Of a stretch of 23,909 nt of DNA, positions 1,665 through 6,127 are shown one piece after another; within the stretch, counting starts at the first letter, position 1, and the number at the start of each line of letters is the position of its first letter. A program made the position numbers and the translations under genes. Source of the DNA: a virus; IMG/VR virus record IMGVR_UViG_3300042691_004196, positions 1 to 23,909 of that record. One strand, 5' to 3'. The notes beneath the pieces were generated by a model. The model was not told where the DNA came from. It made no database searches and saw only the letters and a list, made by a program, of their open reading frames with translations.

Positions 1665-2856
1665 CCTGGCCCTCCAGAACAGCCTTCTTGCCGGTGAACT
1701 CCTCCCAGCGCTTGACAATGACGTCGCAATACTTGGGGTCTAACTCCATGAGGCGAGCCACACGCCCGTTCTTCTCGGCGGCAATAAGGGTTGTTCCCGA
1801 GCCGCCAAAGCTGTCGAGCACCAGATCGCCACCCTTCGTGTTGTTAAGCATCTGGTACTCAAACAACGCCACCGGCTTCATGGTCGGGTGCTCGCCGTTT
1901 CGGCTGGGCTTGTCGAACTCCAGGATAGTTGTCTGCTTTCGATCAGTGGCCCAGAGGTGCCCCGCGCCGTCCTTCCATCCATACAGGCAAGGCTCGTGCT
2001 TCCAGTGGTAGTCTTGGCGACCCATGACCAGCGTGGATTTTTTCCAAATCAAGCATTGGCGAACTTTCCAACCTGCGTCCTTCGCCGCGCCACGGAAGTT
2101 ATACCCCTCCAAGTCCGCGTGCCAGATGTAAAACACCGCCCCAGGCTTCATCACCGTATCAGCCGCGGTGTAAGCATCGCGTAAGAATTGGCGAAACTGG
2201 TCGTCGCCCATGCTGTCGTTTTGGATGGTCAGCTTTTCTTTCGTGCTCCCCTCATACGCCACGTTGTACGGTGGGTCGGTCAGCCACATATCCACCAGTT
2301 GCCCTTGGCAGAGCTGGGCTAAATGCTCCATGCTCGTGCTATCCCCACACATCACCCGATGCCGCCCCAACACCCACACATCCCCAGGTTTGGTGATCGG
2401 CTCTGGCCCCGCCTCGGGCACCTCGTCCTCATCCACTAGACCATCGAGCACCTGCGGCTCTAGCAGCGCGTCTAGCTCCTTGGTGTCGAAACCTAACAGG
2501 TCAAGGTTATAACCCTCCGCGGCTAATTCCCCCAACTCCAAAGTAAGCATCTCATTGTCCCACCCGGCATTTAGCGCCAGACGGTTATCGGCAATTACAT
2601 AAGCCTTCTTCTGAGCGTCGGTTAAGTCACGCAACTCAATAGTCGGAACTTCGGTAAAGCCTAGCTTTCTCCCCGCCAGTAATCTGCCGTGGCCAGCAAT
2701 AATTACTCCCTCCCCGTCCACCAGGATCGGATTAGTCCAACCGAACTCCTTGATGGAGGCTGCTATTTGCGCGACCTGCTCATCCGAGTGCGTCCGACTG
2801 TTGCGGACGTAGGGGATAAGCTCGTCGACCTTGCGTGTGGTGATTGTGATGCTCAT
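1645..2856 (-). CDS. ParB-domain / N4-N6 DNA methyltransferase fusion
   Basis: A 403-aa two-domain protein. Residues 1-115 are a ParB/Srx-like domain (SDEQVAQIAASIKEFGW, then AGHGRLLA at 54-61 and an IADNRL segment). Residues 155-395 are an S-adenosylmethionine-dependent DNA amino-methyltransferase. The catalytic DPPY is at 194-197, HPTMKP at 323-328 and the AdoMet-binding DSFGGSGTT at 348-356; this DPPY-before-FxGxG order is the beta class. Such fusions are widespread in phages and are usually thought to modify phage DNA against host restriction or to mark it. No restriction partner is visible, so it is probably solitary. It is the first gene of the terS-terL block. No SD precedes the ATG, while a TATAGT lies 8 bases upstream, so a leaderless mRNA is possible. 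Target sequence unknown. Confidence 0.94.
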   Translation of the reverse strand: MSITITTRKVDELIPYVRNSRTHSDEQVAQIAASIKEFGWTNPILVDGEGVIIAGHGRLLAGRKLGFTEVPTIELRDLTDAQKKAYVIADNRLALNAGWDNEMLTLELGELAAEGYNLDLLGFDTKELDALLEPQVLDGLVDEDEVPEAGPEPITKPGDVWVLGRHRVMCGDSTSMEHLAQLCQGQLVDMWLTDPPYNVAYEGSTKEKLTIQNDSMGDDQFRQFLRDAYTAADTVMKPGAVFYIWHADLEGYNFRGAAKDAGWKVRQCLIWKKSTLVMGRQDYHWKHEPCLYGWKDGAGHLWATDRKQTTILEFDKPSRNGEHPTMKPVALFEYQMLNNTKGGDLVLDSFGGSGTTLIAAEKNGRVARLMELDPKYCDVIVKRWEEFTGKKAVLEGQDELAAD

Positions 2857-2864
2857 GGCCGCGC

Positions 2865-2870
2865 ACTATA
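2865..2870 (-). promoter_or_regulatory. candidate -10 element of the methyltransferase-terS-terL promoter
   Basis: TATAGT on the minus strand (5 of 6 bases of TATAAT) ends 8 bases before the methyltransferase ATG at 2856. A run of eight A's on the same strand lies just upstream (plus-strand T's at 2873-2880). No good -35 is seen at 16-18 bp. A start site 6-8 bases downstream of the -10 would fall at or next to the ATG. With no SD visible, this points to a leaderless or nearly leaderless transcript. Confidence 0.35.
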
Positions 2871-2931
2871 CGTTTTTTTTCTTCGATGCACCAGAGGGGG
2901 CACGGAAAAAGGCTAAACCGGTTTTTTTTGT

Positions 2932-2978
2932 GGGGAGGGGGCACCCACAACTATCACAAGCCGAGCCGCCCCCTCCCC
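2932..2978. repeat. 11-bp GC-tract inverted repeat beside the DnaA boxes
   Basis: GGGGAGGGGGC at 2932-2942 is perfectly complementary to GCCCCCTCCCC at 2968-2978, with a 25-base loop. The C tract continues to 2983, so the minus strand carries nine G's, an A and five G's, able in principle to form a quadruplex. It lies 8-13 bp from the first DnaA box. No T tract follows it in either direction, so it is not an intrinsic terminator. A role in origin structure is inference. Confidence 0.6.
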
Positions 2979-2990
2979 CCCCCTATCGAG

Positions 2991-3213
2991 TTATCCACAG
3001 GTTACCCACAGAACTTTAGACCTATTGTGGACAACCTGTGAGCAGAGCGCGTAAGTGTTTGATTTGTTTAGACTCTTACGCAGAGCTGACAAAATAAAAG
3101 AAATACAACAGCCATTATGTCAAATTCTGTTTAACTTTTTGGGCGTCAAAGTATTACAAAATCGGTTATGCACAGGCCGATTGTGGATAACTTGGCGCCA
3201 GATCTGTGGATAA
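2991..3213. other. candidate replication origin: DnaA-box cluster with AT-rich core
   Basis: Three perfect E. coli-type DnaA boxes are present: TTATCCACA at 2991-2999 (+) and its complement TGTGGATAA at 3182-3190 and 3205-3213 (-). A fourth, TTATGCACA at 3166-3174 (+), fits TTWTNCACA. Two one-mismatch sites, TTACCCACA (3002-3010, +) and TGTGGACAA (3026-3034, -), complete six. The boxes form two groups of three around an AT-rich stretch (about 3058-3165) that could be the unwinding element. The whole 2857-3353 gap is non-coding. By analogy with bacterial oriC and DnaA-dependent plasmids, it would recruit host DnaA. The site sequences are read directly; origin function is inferred. Confidence 0.7.
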
Positions 3214-3249
3214 CCTGGGGACAACTGGGGTCAGTCAAAAAACGGAGAG

Positions 3250-3291
3250 AAAAAACAAAAAAGAGAGGGTCGGGTGGTGCTTTTCCGACCC
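3250..3291 (-). terminator. leftward intrinsic terminator
   Basis: On the minus strand GGGTCGG (3291-3285) pairs with CCGACCC (3273-3267) across an 11-base loop. TCTC, six T's, a G and six more T's follow (3266-3250). It lies about 60 bp past the stop of the 86-codon gene, so it would end the Cro-primase transcript before the origin and leave the methyltransferase-terS-terL block to its own promoter. Confidence 0.72.
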
Positions 3292-3353
3292 ACCAAGCTG
3301 ACCAGACTTCTCAGGAAAGGTGCCCACAAGACGCCAATGCCTCTAGAACGCGT

Positions 3354-3599
3354 TTAACGGCCCTTTGAGGCGTTTTCTTTGTTGCCAAGGGGTAGGACTA
3401 GTGTTGCCTTGCTCAAGTCCATACCGGGCCTAAAGCCGAGGCTGTAGAGATATTGGTAGGTATCGAGCACCTCCAGCCAGCCAGCCGACATGTCGCCACC
3501 ACCAGCCGCCAACAGGATCGCTCTCTGGCCTTCGTCAAGGTTGCGCTGGAAGACACGCACATCCGGCTTCGCTGGCCTGCCCAACCCATAAATCCCCAT
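3354..3599 (-). CDS. small protein, possible ribbon-helix-helix-like regulator
   Basis: 81 aa from the ATG at 3599. The frame also allows a GTG at 3614 (86 aa), but GGGGGA sits seven bases before the ATG, so the shorter form is preferred. After a basic N-terminus (GLGRPAKPDVRVFQRNL), a helix carrying LLAAGGGDMSAGW matches, from memory, small phage proteins with an 'LxALGGGNxSAGIR' signature. A strand followed by two helices would suit a ribbon-helix-helix DNA binder, but this is weak. It is the last gene of the Cro-primase leftward unit, with a terminator behind it and the TTGACCCT array directly upstream. That position would suit an autoregulator, which is inference. Function unknown. Confidence 0.7.
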   Translation of the reverse strand: MGIYGLGRPAKPDVRVFQRNLDEGQRAILLAAGGGDMSAGWLEVLDTYQYLYSLGFRPGMDLSKATLVLPLGNKENASKGR

Positions 3600-3655
3600 C
3601 CTCAATTCCCCCACACTTTACTCAACAATTAAACCCCAAAAACCCTACAAGCAGC

Positions 3656-3780
3656 TTGACCCTATGACCCCAACCCTTAGGGTTGGGGGTCAGGGAGGGT
3701 CAACTTTGCTGCTTTTTTAAGCACTTTTGACCCTGACCCTAGACTTGACCCTAGGGTCATCCAGGGTCAACTTTGACCCT
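3656..3780. repeat. TTGACCCT repeat array (operator or iteron candidate)
   Basis: About ten copies of TGACCCY in both orientations occur in 125 bp. TTGACCCT is at 3656-3663, 3727-3734, 3745-3752 and 3773-3780 (+) and at 3696-3703 and 3763-3770 (-). TGACCCT is at 3734-3740 (+) and 3753-3759 (-). Variant TGACCCC is at 3665-3671 (+) and 3686-3692 (-). Pairs form a perfect 14-bp palindrome TGACCCTAGGGTCA (3746-3759) and a longer near-palindrome centred on TTA at 3677-3679. The array lies between the primase-helicase stop and the 86-codon gene. No coding frame explains it. It could be an operator set for a nearby small regulator or a second replication element. Confidence 0.85.
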
Positions 3781-3850
3781 GCACCGCAGTCGGGTATTGG
3801 CACAAATTCGACCAAGATCAAGGCCCACTTTCCCGCATCCCATGCAGTCC

Positions 3851-5866
3851 TCAAGCCCCATTCTTACGCATCATCATGGCGCTAGATTGCGCCTCATCGA
3901 CCACAATCCATCCATGCTCGGTGTTCTCGATGATGGCGGCCTGGAGCAGCGCACCGATCAACTTGTCGTTATAGGACGGGTTCACCATGTTCCTGATGGT
4001 GCGCTCTGCGTTCCCGTCCGCTGCCAGCTTGTCTTTGAGCGCTGACCTGGTGAGGTACGGCGCACCGCCCAGATCCTCCGCACCGCTGGCCCACCAAGCG
4101 TTTTCCCAGACCTTTCTAAACCCATCGATCTTAGAATCCTTTTTAGATGGTGTCGCTGGCGCAGCCGACTCAACTATTATCGCACTCGTTACAGCCTGAT
4201 TATCTTCGTCATACCAGCCAGGAATAGTTACCTGCTGCAAATCTAGGAATACCGGCTTTGCAATCTCCGCATCCTTGGATTTACGCTGCACTAATTGCAT
4301 TGGTGTATTAGTTCCAGCAGGTATGACACTTATCTCAATATCCAATGCACCGCGCCAAGCGCTTGACCCTCGAGCGCGATGCTGGGCCTCCTCGGAGACG
4401 CCGGTGTGGTGAACTAGGATAACCGAGCAGTTGAACTCGGTCATTAGATTGGCGCAGGCGTCCAGCATGGTCTTGGTGTCCTGGGCGCTGTTCTCGTCGC
4501 CTGCTAGGAAACGGTGCAGGGTATCGACGACAATCACCTTGGGGGTCTCGGGCAGCATTCTGATGTGCCCTGAAACTTTGAGGTAACCGGCTGGGGTGTT
4601 CAAGTCGCAACCATGCTTAGACAACCACATATTGATGCTAGTGGGCTTGTGCTGGTGCTTCCAAGCAGCAATTCGACCACGCAGACCGTGGTGACCTTCG
4701 CCTGCTAAATAGACCACGTTGCCGGGGCGCACTTTTTGGCCACACCAGTCGGGGGTGGCGCTTGCTATCCGTAGGCACCAGTCAAGCACCACGAAGGTCT
4801 TGCCGCCGCCTGATGGGCCATGCACCATGACCAAAGCCTGATCTTGTATCCAGCGTTTTACCAGCCATGAGATGGGGCTGGGCTGGGCTGAGAACTCATC
4901 GGCGCGAACTAGCCAATCGTCTGTAGCAGGCGATAAAAGGCTCGCCAGATCGTGCCCAGCCTGGACATAATCATTGGCGTCGCCAGATTCTGGAGGCATA
5001 ACCATGCGTGCTCCGTGCTTGGCGCAAGCCTGCTCGGCATAGCGCTGGCCTACACCACTTTTATCGTTATCGGCCACGATCACCAGCTCCTGCGCTGCAC
5101 CATGCATCTCCCGCAGGGTGCCGGTCACGGGCACGAGGTTGCTGGCGCTGTAGGCCACCACCACGGGGCGGTTGGTGGTCTCATGGATCGTGGCTGCGGT
5201 GGCAAAGCCCTCGGCCACATAGAGCGTGCCGGGTTCGTCCATCGTGCCCAGCATCCAGAACTTGCCGCCTGTCTGACCGCCAGGGTGGTAGAGCTTGCCG
5301 CCGTCGTGGTCGATGTACTGGAGGCTGGACAATGAGCCGTCGGCATCGTAGAGGGGCACGACTAGCCGCCCGTCGCCTGTGGCCCGAGCGCCATGAACGC
5401 CAATACCCTTTTTGGCTAGGTAGGGGTGATCTGGGAGCGCTGCCCATGCGCCTGTCCATATCTTTTCGACTGTCTCGCTGGCAACCTGATGCTGGCGCTC
5501 GAGGGTGGCATCCCGCAAGGCTTTGGCCTCGGCAAGGCGCTTGGCGTTGGACATCTCCTCGGTCTGGCTTAGTTTTCGCCCAACATCAGCCCGAAAAGTA
5601 AATTCAAGACCTGCCCGCCAGCAACCAAAACGCCCCGCAGGAATGCCATCGCCAAAGATCAGATACCAACCGGGCTTGTCGCCGTGACCCGGTGAGCCTT
5701 TGGTGCCGCTGCGAAAGCGGTGGATCTTTCCGTCCAGATGCACCTCATCTGGTGGCTCTAAGCCCGCCGCTCGGATGGCGTCAATTAGTTGCACCTCCGG
5801 TGGAGCGACTAGCTTTTCTGGGGACGGTGACCAGGGGCCACCTAGGATGTTAGAGAGGTCAGCCAA
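3851..5866 (-). CDS. Toprim primase / RepA-like helicase fusion
   Basis: A 671-aa replication protein that would prime and unwind phage DNA at the fork. An N-terminal primase-like region (1-200) leads to a Toprim domain with VAEGFATAAT (E219) and VADND (266-268), the metal-binding acidic residues. A RecA-fold helicase domain follows: Walker A GPSGGGKT (350-357), Walker B VIVVD (444-448) and SVILVHHTG (481-489). The C-terminal 100 residues resemble a helix-rich DNA-binding tail. No CHC2 zinc finger is seen at the N-terminus, so it is shorter there than T7 gp4-type primase-helicases. The start is a TTG at 5866, 8 bp inside the Cro-like gene. Its SD (AAGGA) is very close, so the exact start is uncertain, but no better start is visible nearby. 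Confidence 0.93.
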   Translation of the reverse strand: MADLSNILGGPWSPSPEKLVAPPEVQLIDAIRAAGLEPPDEVHLDGKIHRFRSGTKGSPGHGDKPGWYLIFGDGIPAGRFGCWRAGLEFTFRADVGRKLSQTEEMSNAKRLAEAKALRDATLERQHQVASETVEKIWTGAWAALPDHPYLAKKGIGVHGARATGDGRLVVPLYDADGSLSSLQYIDHDGGKLYHPGGQTGGKFWMLGTMDEPGTLYVAEGFATAATIHETTNRPVVVAYSASNLVPVTGTLREMHGAAQELVIVADNDKSGVGQRYAEQACAKHGARMVMPPESGDANDYVQAGHDLASLLSPATDDWLVRADEFSAQPSPISWLVKRWIQDQALVMVHGPSGGGKTFVVLDWCLRIASATPDWCGQKVRPGNVVYLAGEGHHGLRGRIAAWKHQHKPTSINMWLSKHGCDLNTPAGYLKVSGHIRMLPETPKVIVVDTLHRFLAGDENSAQDTKTMLDACANLMTEFNCSVILVHHTGVSEEAQHRARGSSAWRGALDIEISVIPAGTNTPMQLVQRKSKDAEIAKPVFLDLQQVTIPGWYDEDNQAVTSAIIVESAAPATPSKKDSKIDGFRKVWENAWWASGAEDLGGAPYLTRSALKDKLAADGNAERTIRNMVNPSYNDKLIGALLQAAIIENTEHGWIVVDEAQSSAMMMRKNGA

Positions 5867-6077
5867 GTTCCTTCTCCCGATCAGCCTTCAATTCTCCCTC
5901 AGTCTTGACCTCCAGCTCGTACTGGCGAGACATCGGTGGCCGCTCGCCCCAGGCGTACACCACCTGCGGCCATACGCCCAGCGCATCAGCCAACTTCTTC
6001 ACGCCGCCATAGTGGGCGACGGCTTCATCTGTTTTCATCTCGTTCTTTCTGGGTTTTTTTTCATCGGGTGTTGACAT
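5859..6077 (-). CDS. Cro/CI-family HTH transcriptional regulator
   Basis: 72 aa. After a lysine-rich leader, residues 16-50 (AVAHYGGVKKLADALGV then VVYAWGERPPMS) have the Cro-family helix-turn-helix layout, in which the WGE-P turn follows the recognition helix. The short, acidic-basic C-terminus leaves no room for a CI-type dimerisation or LexA-like cleavage domain, so it is Cro-like, not CI-like. It is first in the leftward primase unit and divergent from the Sak4 operon. Its ATG overlaps the consensus -35 of the rightward promoter, and a 12-bp palindrome lies 20 bp away, so it probably represses the divergent promoters. An internal ATG at 6038 would leave the HTH intact and is an alternative start. 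Confidence 0.85.
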   Translation of the reverse strand: MSTPDEKKPRKNEMKTDEAVAHYGGVKKLADALGVWPQVVYAWGERPPMSRQYELEVKTEGELKADREKELG

Positions 6078-6108: not shown

Positions 6109-6127
6109 GCCTCGAACTGATTCCCAG

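Follow-up and report, generated by a model that had tools for sequence, protein, structure and literature searches.

A conserved DnaA-box and IHF module around a dif-like core lies near the iterons of a phage whose primase-helicase is a putative initiator

We analysed a 23,909-base virus record from IMG/VR, referred to throughout as the window. Its minus strand carries, from one end, the gene of the terminase large subunit (terL, 2–1057), recognized by domain matches and cut by the contig end, a putative small terminase subunit (terS, 1050–1718), assigned by its position before terL only, as its family matches are of unknown function, and a ParB-like/N6-N4 DNA methyltransferase (1645–2856), identified by domain matches. 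In the latter, a ParB-like N-terminal domain is fused to the N6/N4 methyltransferase, and the gene separates the DnaA module from terS in only some close relatives. On the same strand follow a small ORF located between the DnaA module and an iteron array (3354–3614; 86 aa as listed, with an internal ATG near 3600), which has tblastn matches in 22 relatives at 46–70% identity, a primase-helicase (3851–5866), and a P22-Cro-like regulator (5859–6077). Protein scans thus yielded TerL, the methyltransferase, the primase-helicase and the Cro-like regulator, and the window further encodes Sak4-like and SSB-like proteins, a Cas4-type exonuclease, a helicase, a VRR nuclease, and lysis and tail proteins. 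No polymerase was found among the window proteins scanned, and the records of 15 relatives contained neither a PolA or PolB family polymerase nor a DnaA C-terminal domain, so that the host replisome is probably used. A tyrosine integrase was likewise missing from the records of these 15 relatives; as clues to lifestyle, this absence stands beside the P22-Cro-like regulator and a dif-like site. Rfam and tRNA scans of the window gave no matches, and the promoter/terminator scan returned nothing, including no sigma-70-like promoter in 2800–3860. Three of six fetched contigs (G001, G002 and G005) look complete because they carry terminal direct repeats, of 33, 123 and 99 bp, respectively.

The original prediction described six DnaA boxes at 2991–3213, three perfect and three with one mismatch, with three boxes on each side of an AT-rich stretch, and our motif scan confirmed this arrangement. 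Perfect boxes (TTATCCACA) lie at 2991–2999 on the plus strand and at 3182–3190 and 3205–3213 on the minus strand, and one-mismatch boxes at 3002–3010 (TTACCCACA, plus), 3026–3034 (TTGTCCACA, minus) and 3166–3174 (TTATGCACA, plus). All six are kept in the relatives of group A. The DNA between the two groups (3035–3165) has an AT content of 63%, compared to 45% for the whole window, and outside the cluster only two one-mismatch boxes occur in the 23.9 kb (13626 and 18202). Chance had been judged unlikely to place three perfect boxes so close together, and this estimate held. For 2000 first-order Markov sequences modelled on the window, the highest count per 230 bp was one perfect box (in 163 of the 2000), with two perfect boxes in none, against three observed; for boxes with at most one mismatch the maximum was two (in 175 of the 2000), against six. 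Similarly, 20,000 Markov sequences matching the gap (556 bp) in composition gave maxima of one perfect box and two boxes with at most one mismatch. Of all 9-mers in the window, just five are found three times inside 230 bp: one, CCACCACCA, is simple sequence, and the other four are shifted versions of the DnaA box (two) and versions of the iteron (two). Judged from its sequence, the DnaA-box cluster is real and selected. The minimum of GC skew that had been expected at about 3.1 kb was found elsewhere, at 6124 by plain cumulation and at 4370 after detrending, in a window whose skew is confounded by gene strand and by the incompleteness of the contig; in the named relatives, comparison with the gene tables revealed that the skew minimum tracks the gene-strand switch. 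Searching the gap against the phage collection gave four short weak matches, two of them to Microviridae at the boxes (unannotated stretches MH572269.1 3067–3095 and PQ006418.1 2269–2291, matching the box stretch 2984–3012), and no DNA similarity to the gap was found in plasmids.

The boxes are part of a larger module (2932–3213), in which they enclose, together with an IHF site, a 28-bp core; a G-rich hairpin comes next, before the terminase genes. The core (TTATGTCAAAT, 3098–3125, plus strand), recognized by its pattern and conservation, is dif/Xer-like and consists of an 11-bp left arm, a 6-bp centre and an 11-bp right arm. The IHF site (WATCAANNNNTTR, 3052–3064, minus strand) matches perfectly the consensus printed in an excerpt of PMC4585315 and sits at a fixed offset in the module, and the G-rich tract with its C-rich partner (2932–2983, minus strand) is indicated by a folding z of −2.7 and by conservation. 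Boxes around or beside a 28-bp core with an Xer-type layout are common to groups A, B and C. Column identities in group A, calculated for ten sequences after dropping the near-duplicates L017 and L029 from 12, amounted to 0.92 for the boxes, 0.95 for the IHF site and 0.93 for the G-tract, compared to 0.65 for other columns; the core arms were invariant (1.00), and the centre (0.53) was less conserved than the spacer DNA. Within box pairs the spacing is 11 bp, and indels preserve it, as illustrated by an 11-bp insertion in L012. The two apparently complete group A contigs G001 and G002 have perfect boxes at the place of the DnaA cluster alone.

The association of core and boxes was also recovered with search patterns containing no DnaA letters. 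Two such core patterns retrieved 44 stretches (27 and 17), with one or more boxes no farther than 250 bp from every core. A third pattern retrieved 60 stretches, of which 54 have a box within 300 bp, 53 two or more boxes, 51 an IHF site and 57 a G- or C-tract; the same pattern reversed gave 44 stretches, six with a box and none with two boxes, an IHF site or a tract. Six of the 60 cores are boxless, including L321, L322, L340 and L345, where the G-tract is still present; these four and L320 combine core and G-tract with at most one box. We then used the Sulfurimonas dif sequence, as given in an excerpt of PMC2731167, as a probe on 1.52 Mb and obtained 50 matches of 20–22 out of 28 positions, all located in cores, with the remaining three matches scoring 19; while the probe itself is independent of the core pattern, most of the probed contigs had been fetched by that pattern, and the presence of the 50 matches is thus not independent. 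The core has the 11-6-11 layout with a conserved right arm. In the window, this arm agrees at 10 of 11 positions with TTATGTTAAAT, which we take to be the dif right-arm reference. The left arm agrees with Sulfurimonas at 8 of 11 positions, by eye, in ATTTAATACAA cores and is weak in the window, the core of which ranks among the less dif-like versions, chiefly via this arm. Of 68 whole contigs, 13 end less than about 300 bp from the core (5.6 expected), mostly on the primase side, an excess that could come from repeats, genome ends or recombination. The module of a relative had no match among phages by DNA similarity. An alignment query of genome contigs revealed no clear integrated copy of the window's kind in 25 loci, mostly from MAGs, and a single primase used as query gave no confirmed relative in genome contigs.

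To follow the boxes across relatives, we took the best 80 of 262 viral relatives from a primase scan. Conservation tests the boxes more stringently than the chance models do: in the 811,475 bases of these 80, TTATCCACA occurs 181 times, compared to three occurrences of its letters reversed. Among the 63 loci with at least 1 kb downstream (the window counted), 59 have a box within 1250 bp 3' of the primase and 55 have two or more, whereas two or more boxes were present in just 9 of 630 upstream control stretches. The boxes lie near iterons only in 28 of the 63 loci, in the dif-like-core module only in 24, at both places in 7 and at neither in 4; in L037, L039, L048 and L053 iterons are present, and a box is absent within 1250 bp or the shorter stretch available. 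In the T3/T4 lineages, boxes are fixed on both sides of the iteron array though the iterons themselves are replaced. The named cultured relatives have kept the iterons and lack the DnaA cluster. The expectation that the boxes would be conserved was therefore borne out for the uncultured relatives and failed for the named cultured ones. Given this conservation, a chance origin of the boxes was already unlikely. One locus, L022, groups by its primase core with the window relatives L005 and L006 and has the layout of group B, in which boxes flank the iterons on either side; at the level of sequence, this suggests that the origin region was exchanged.

The primase-helicase gene is followed on its 3' side by an immediately adjacent iteron array (3657–3780, minus strand) that emerged from repeat analysis, comprises 10 copies of the unit GGGTCA/TGACCC and is the proposed phage origin. 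Such arrays are a regular feature of this position: of 73 loci that extend 235 bp or more downstream, 72 contain the best unit six or more times, compared to mostly 2–4 copies in random 250-bp stretches. L051 (6177–7343) is the exception, with iterons about 0.95–1 kb from the primase and an unchanged spacing between boxes and iterons. The unit itself varies, being GGGTCA, AGGGGG, GGTAAC or ACGGAA in the best 80 of the 262 relatives, and GGGACA, GGTACA and GGTTCA in Salicola phage CGphi29, Idiomarinaceae phage 1N2-2 and two Alteromonas phages. Relatives in genome contigs have further, different units; one of them, on a 140-kb contig of Pyramidobacter sp. C12-8 (L144, 10001–12300), pairs a primase-helicase relative with GATGCA-type iterons and is possibly a prophage. 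The second iteron block can form a long hairpin (3649–3714, minus strand) that shows compensatory changes in relatives, two pairs being changed on both sides among 10 sequences, and the 141-nt stretch at this hairpin has a folding z of −7.7. In the window's lineage the DnaA cluster lies about 0.45–0.8 kb from the iterons.

We propose the adjoining primase-helicase as the protein that reads these iterons. It combines Toprim and AAA_25 domains, with a helicase of RSF1010-RepA type (match to RepA 1g8y, E 3.5e-5), and a C-terminal winged helix. Because the model of the full-length primase was poor (mean pLDDT 65), the C-terminal part was modelled alone, and the resulting AF2 model is a winged helix with a mean pLDDT of 92.6. 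A sequence-profile search of this part against solved structures gave no match, and structure comparison of the model placed winged-helix folds among the matches, with Foldseek E values all above 1e-3 and Z of at most 6.8. Alignment and model delimit the region that tracks the iteron unit to residues ~589–671 (3851–4099, minus strand). In the best-tracking segment, residues 614–642, proteins are 80–97% identical within an iteron class and 18–51% identical between the four large classes, except for T3 and T4, which share 72%; segments before residue 550, in contrast, are at least 72% identical between the four classes. On a tree of residues 1–580, in which many forks are weak, the iteron class changes at least 14 times, the possible least being 6. 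Three T3/T4 pairs with 20, 22 and 37 protein differences combine the change from GGTAAC to GGAAC with Q626V, a change to A at 632 and P633T. Physical linkage of the gene end and the array may explain part of the covariation between unit and segment. Taken together, the sequence comparisons indicate that the phage probably has its own initiator, the primase-helicase reading the adjacent iterons. The statement that no obvious initiator gene is in view is therefore not supported, since the C-terminal winged helix of the primase-helicase tracks the unit of the adjoining array. This putative initiator with iterons of its own, about 0.45 kb from the box cluster, is what the original prediction had named as evidence against itself. 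With the iterons and a matching winged-helix segment present, the notion that DnaA alone opens the origin is weakened, and the box cluster is no evidence that the phage lacks an initiator.

The module, for its part, travels with the terminase genes. Of 62 module loci, 48 have a terS match and 46 a terL match, while just 28 have a primase match, at about 25–32% identity over roughly 200–270 residues; L310, L314 and L342 possess an iteron array of their own just 3' of a divergent primase. Tandem perfect boxes were found in at least 120 viral stretches, 10 of which, among those listed, hold this primase. Adding seven loci (L084–L090) to the 120 listed stretches gave a set of 127, in which 46 contain five or more boxes in 300 bp; a related TerL lies no more than 4 kb from 22 of these 46 dense arrays, and 19 are accompanied by a G- or C-tract, compared to 124 of 2540 random stretches with such a tract. 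The densest arrays, with 10–13 boxes within about 300 bp (L217 1466–1703, L212 482–675, L177 3859–3998, L207 5975–6150 and L268 12732–13037), occur some 1–2 kb ahead of TerL in phages without this primase. L206 and L207 encode a PolA-type polymerase and a T7-type primase-helicase and have dense boxes near a G-tract ~1–2 kb before terL; such phages should be able to initiate without DnaA. Boxes in phages with their own PolA-type polymerase count against 'origin' as the sole meaning of such arrays.

Several explanations of the module were weighed. A stand-alone, oriC-like origin, whose AT-rich core would be opened by host DnaA together with IHF for copying by the host replisome, without a phage initiator, would account for the co-occurrence of boxes, IHF site and AT-rich core and for the polymerase and DnaA genes not found in the 15 relatives. 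We regard it as improbable, because the primase-helicase has a winged-helix segment that matches the iterons, boxes are dispensable in cultured relatives, the skew minimum is not at 3.1 kb, and conservation within the AT-rich stretch is highest in the dif-like core, which resembles a protein site and not an unwinding element. Alternatively, host XerCD might act at the core for dif integration or multimer resolution, with DnaA and IHF shaping the synapse. The invariant arms and variable centre in group A, the 50 cores matched by the Sulfurimonas probe, the lack of integrase in the 15 relatives and the use of Xer by integrase-less phages described in an excerpt of PMC7062461 all argue for such a site; against it stand the core-pattern-fetched contigs behind most of these matches, the window's lineage, in which the right arm alone fits well, the genome contigs, among which an integrated copy was not recognized, and the existence of dense box arrays lacking such a core. 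We consider this account unlikely, if plausible. A related version, in which DnaA and IHF would form an accessory complex of the Xer site and the host replication state would license integration or multimer resolution before the terminase operon, is rather unlikely in our estimation.

The module could also serve as a sink in which rising phage copies titrate or inactivate host DnaA in the manner of datA and stop host re-initiation. Arrays of up to 13 boxes per 300 bp in other viral contigs, including phages with their own polymerase, and an IHF site like that of datA, as described in an excerpt of PMC4585315, are consistent with this possibility; group C loci, however, retain 1–3 boxes near the core, and the fixed geometry about core and iterons exceeds what a sink needs, and we are accordingly doubtful. 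Given that terS/terL are preceded by the module whichever of the two primase groups is considered and that 22 of the 46 dense arrays in the 127-stretch set are within 4 kb of a related terL, it might instead be a packaging (cos/pac) region in which IHF and DnaA are architectural. An IHF site is also present in lambda cos. Contigs with terminal repeats nevertheless run through the module, and the boxes of group E are found at iterons with the module absent, making a packaging role very unlikely. Coincidence, or a mere DnaA-regulated promoter, is hardly credible: DnaA also acts as a transcription factor (PMC8203912), but the null models, the conservation and the lack of a sigma-70-like promoter in 2800–3860 speak against both.

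The reading that we favour, tentatively and with slightly less than even confidence, is a helper site for host DnaA and IHF in a replicon that is copied by the host replisome and has its own iteron origin alongside. On the sequence evidence, the DnaA cluster is probably such a helper site and not the only origin. The proposal that host DnaA opens the origin thus survives in part, as the boxes are real and conserved and use of the host replisome is probable; it loses ground to the phage's own putative initiator with its iterons and to the missing skew minimum. Several observations also weigh against the helper-site reading: the distance of 0.45–0.8 kb between boxes and iterons in the window's lineage, the four iteron loci without a nearby box, the named cultured relatives lacking the cluster, the dense arrays of phages with their own PolA-type polymerase, the linkage of the module to terS/terL beside distant primases, the five loci with core and G-tract and at most one box, the lack of a skew minimum at the cluster and the less dif-like core of the window. 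According to this helper-site model, phage replication would start at the iteron/hairpin array (3657–3780), which would be read by the winged helix of the primase-helicase, and the host would supply the polymerase. Host DnaA and IHF would most likely assemble at the module (2932–3213) and aid the same replicon through strand opening and helicase loading when the phage initiator is scarce, while the Xer-like core would serve the host recombinases in resolving multimers or integrating the circle. The sequences themselves show the boxes, the IHF site, the core, the G-tract, the iterons, the hairpin, the winged-helix covariation and the conservation, from which we infer the binding of DnaA, IHF and XerCD, initiation by the primase-helicase and all functional steps.

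These phage families seem to combine a co-changing initiator-iteron pair with a conserved host-DnaA/IHF/dif-like module. The many iteron variants represent matched pairs of domain and site with which the DNA preference of a winged helix could be tested, and the module raises the question why phages, some with their own polymerase, retain host DnaA arrays before their packaging genes. Should the licensing scenario be true, integrase-less phages would possess a DnaA-gated Xer switch beside a self-specifying origin read by the primase-helicase. Literature searches combining DnaA boxes with phage terms listed no title or abstract opening on a module of this kind, which is not proof of absence.

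Individual components have parallels in known systems. The plasmid origins of pSC101 and P1 oriR are iteron origins with DnaA boxes and an IHF site, and they resemble the phage locus in these elements and in having a replicon-encoded initiator close by; the proposed phage initiator differs in being fused to primase and helicase, and in the window's lineage the boxes and IHF site are 0.45–0.8 kb from the iterons, around a dif-like core. In RSF1010, a hairpin adjoins the iterons. This hairpin and a RepA-type helicase are common to the RSF1010 RepA/RepB/RepC system and the phage, which has its functions fused in one protein and DnaA boxes added. The Rep proteins of SaPIs have lineage-specific iterons, and the P4 alpha protein, according to an excerpt of PMC7145576, is an initiator with helicase activity fused to a primase. 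An initiator with helicase activity and lineage-specific iterons resemble the pair proposed here, whereas the phage system has an RSF1010-RepA-type helicase, belongs to full tailed phages and uses a winged helix without a sequence match to a solved structure. The core shares with dif, cer and psi sites and those of Xer phages the 11+6+11 layout, the better conserved right arm and the variable centre, as presented in excerpts of PMC2731167 and PMC5357621, and is distinguished by its enclosure by DnaA boxes and an IHF site and, in the window's lineage, by a weak left arm. Finally, the E. coli loci datA and DARS2 are non-coding stretches with DnaA boxes and an IHF site (PMC4585315); the phage module can be likened to them by these types of components and differs in sitting on a phage, together with a dif-like core and a G-tract.
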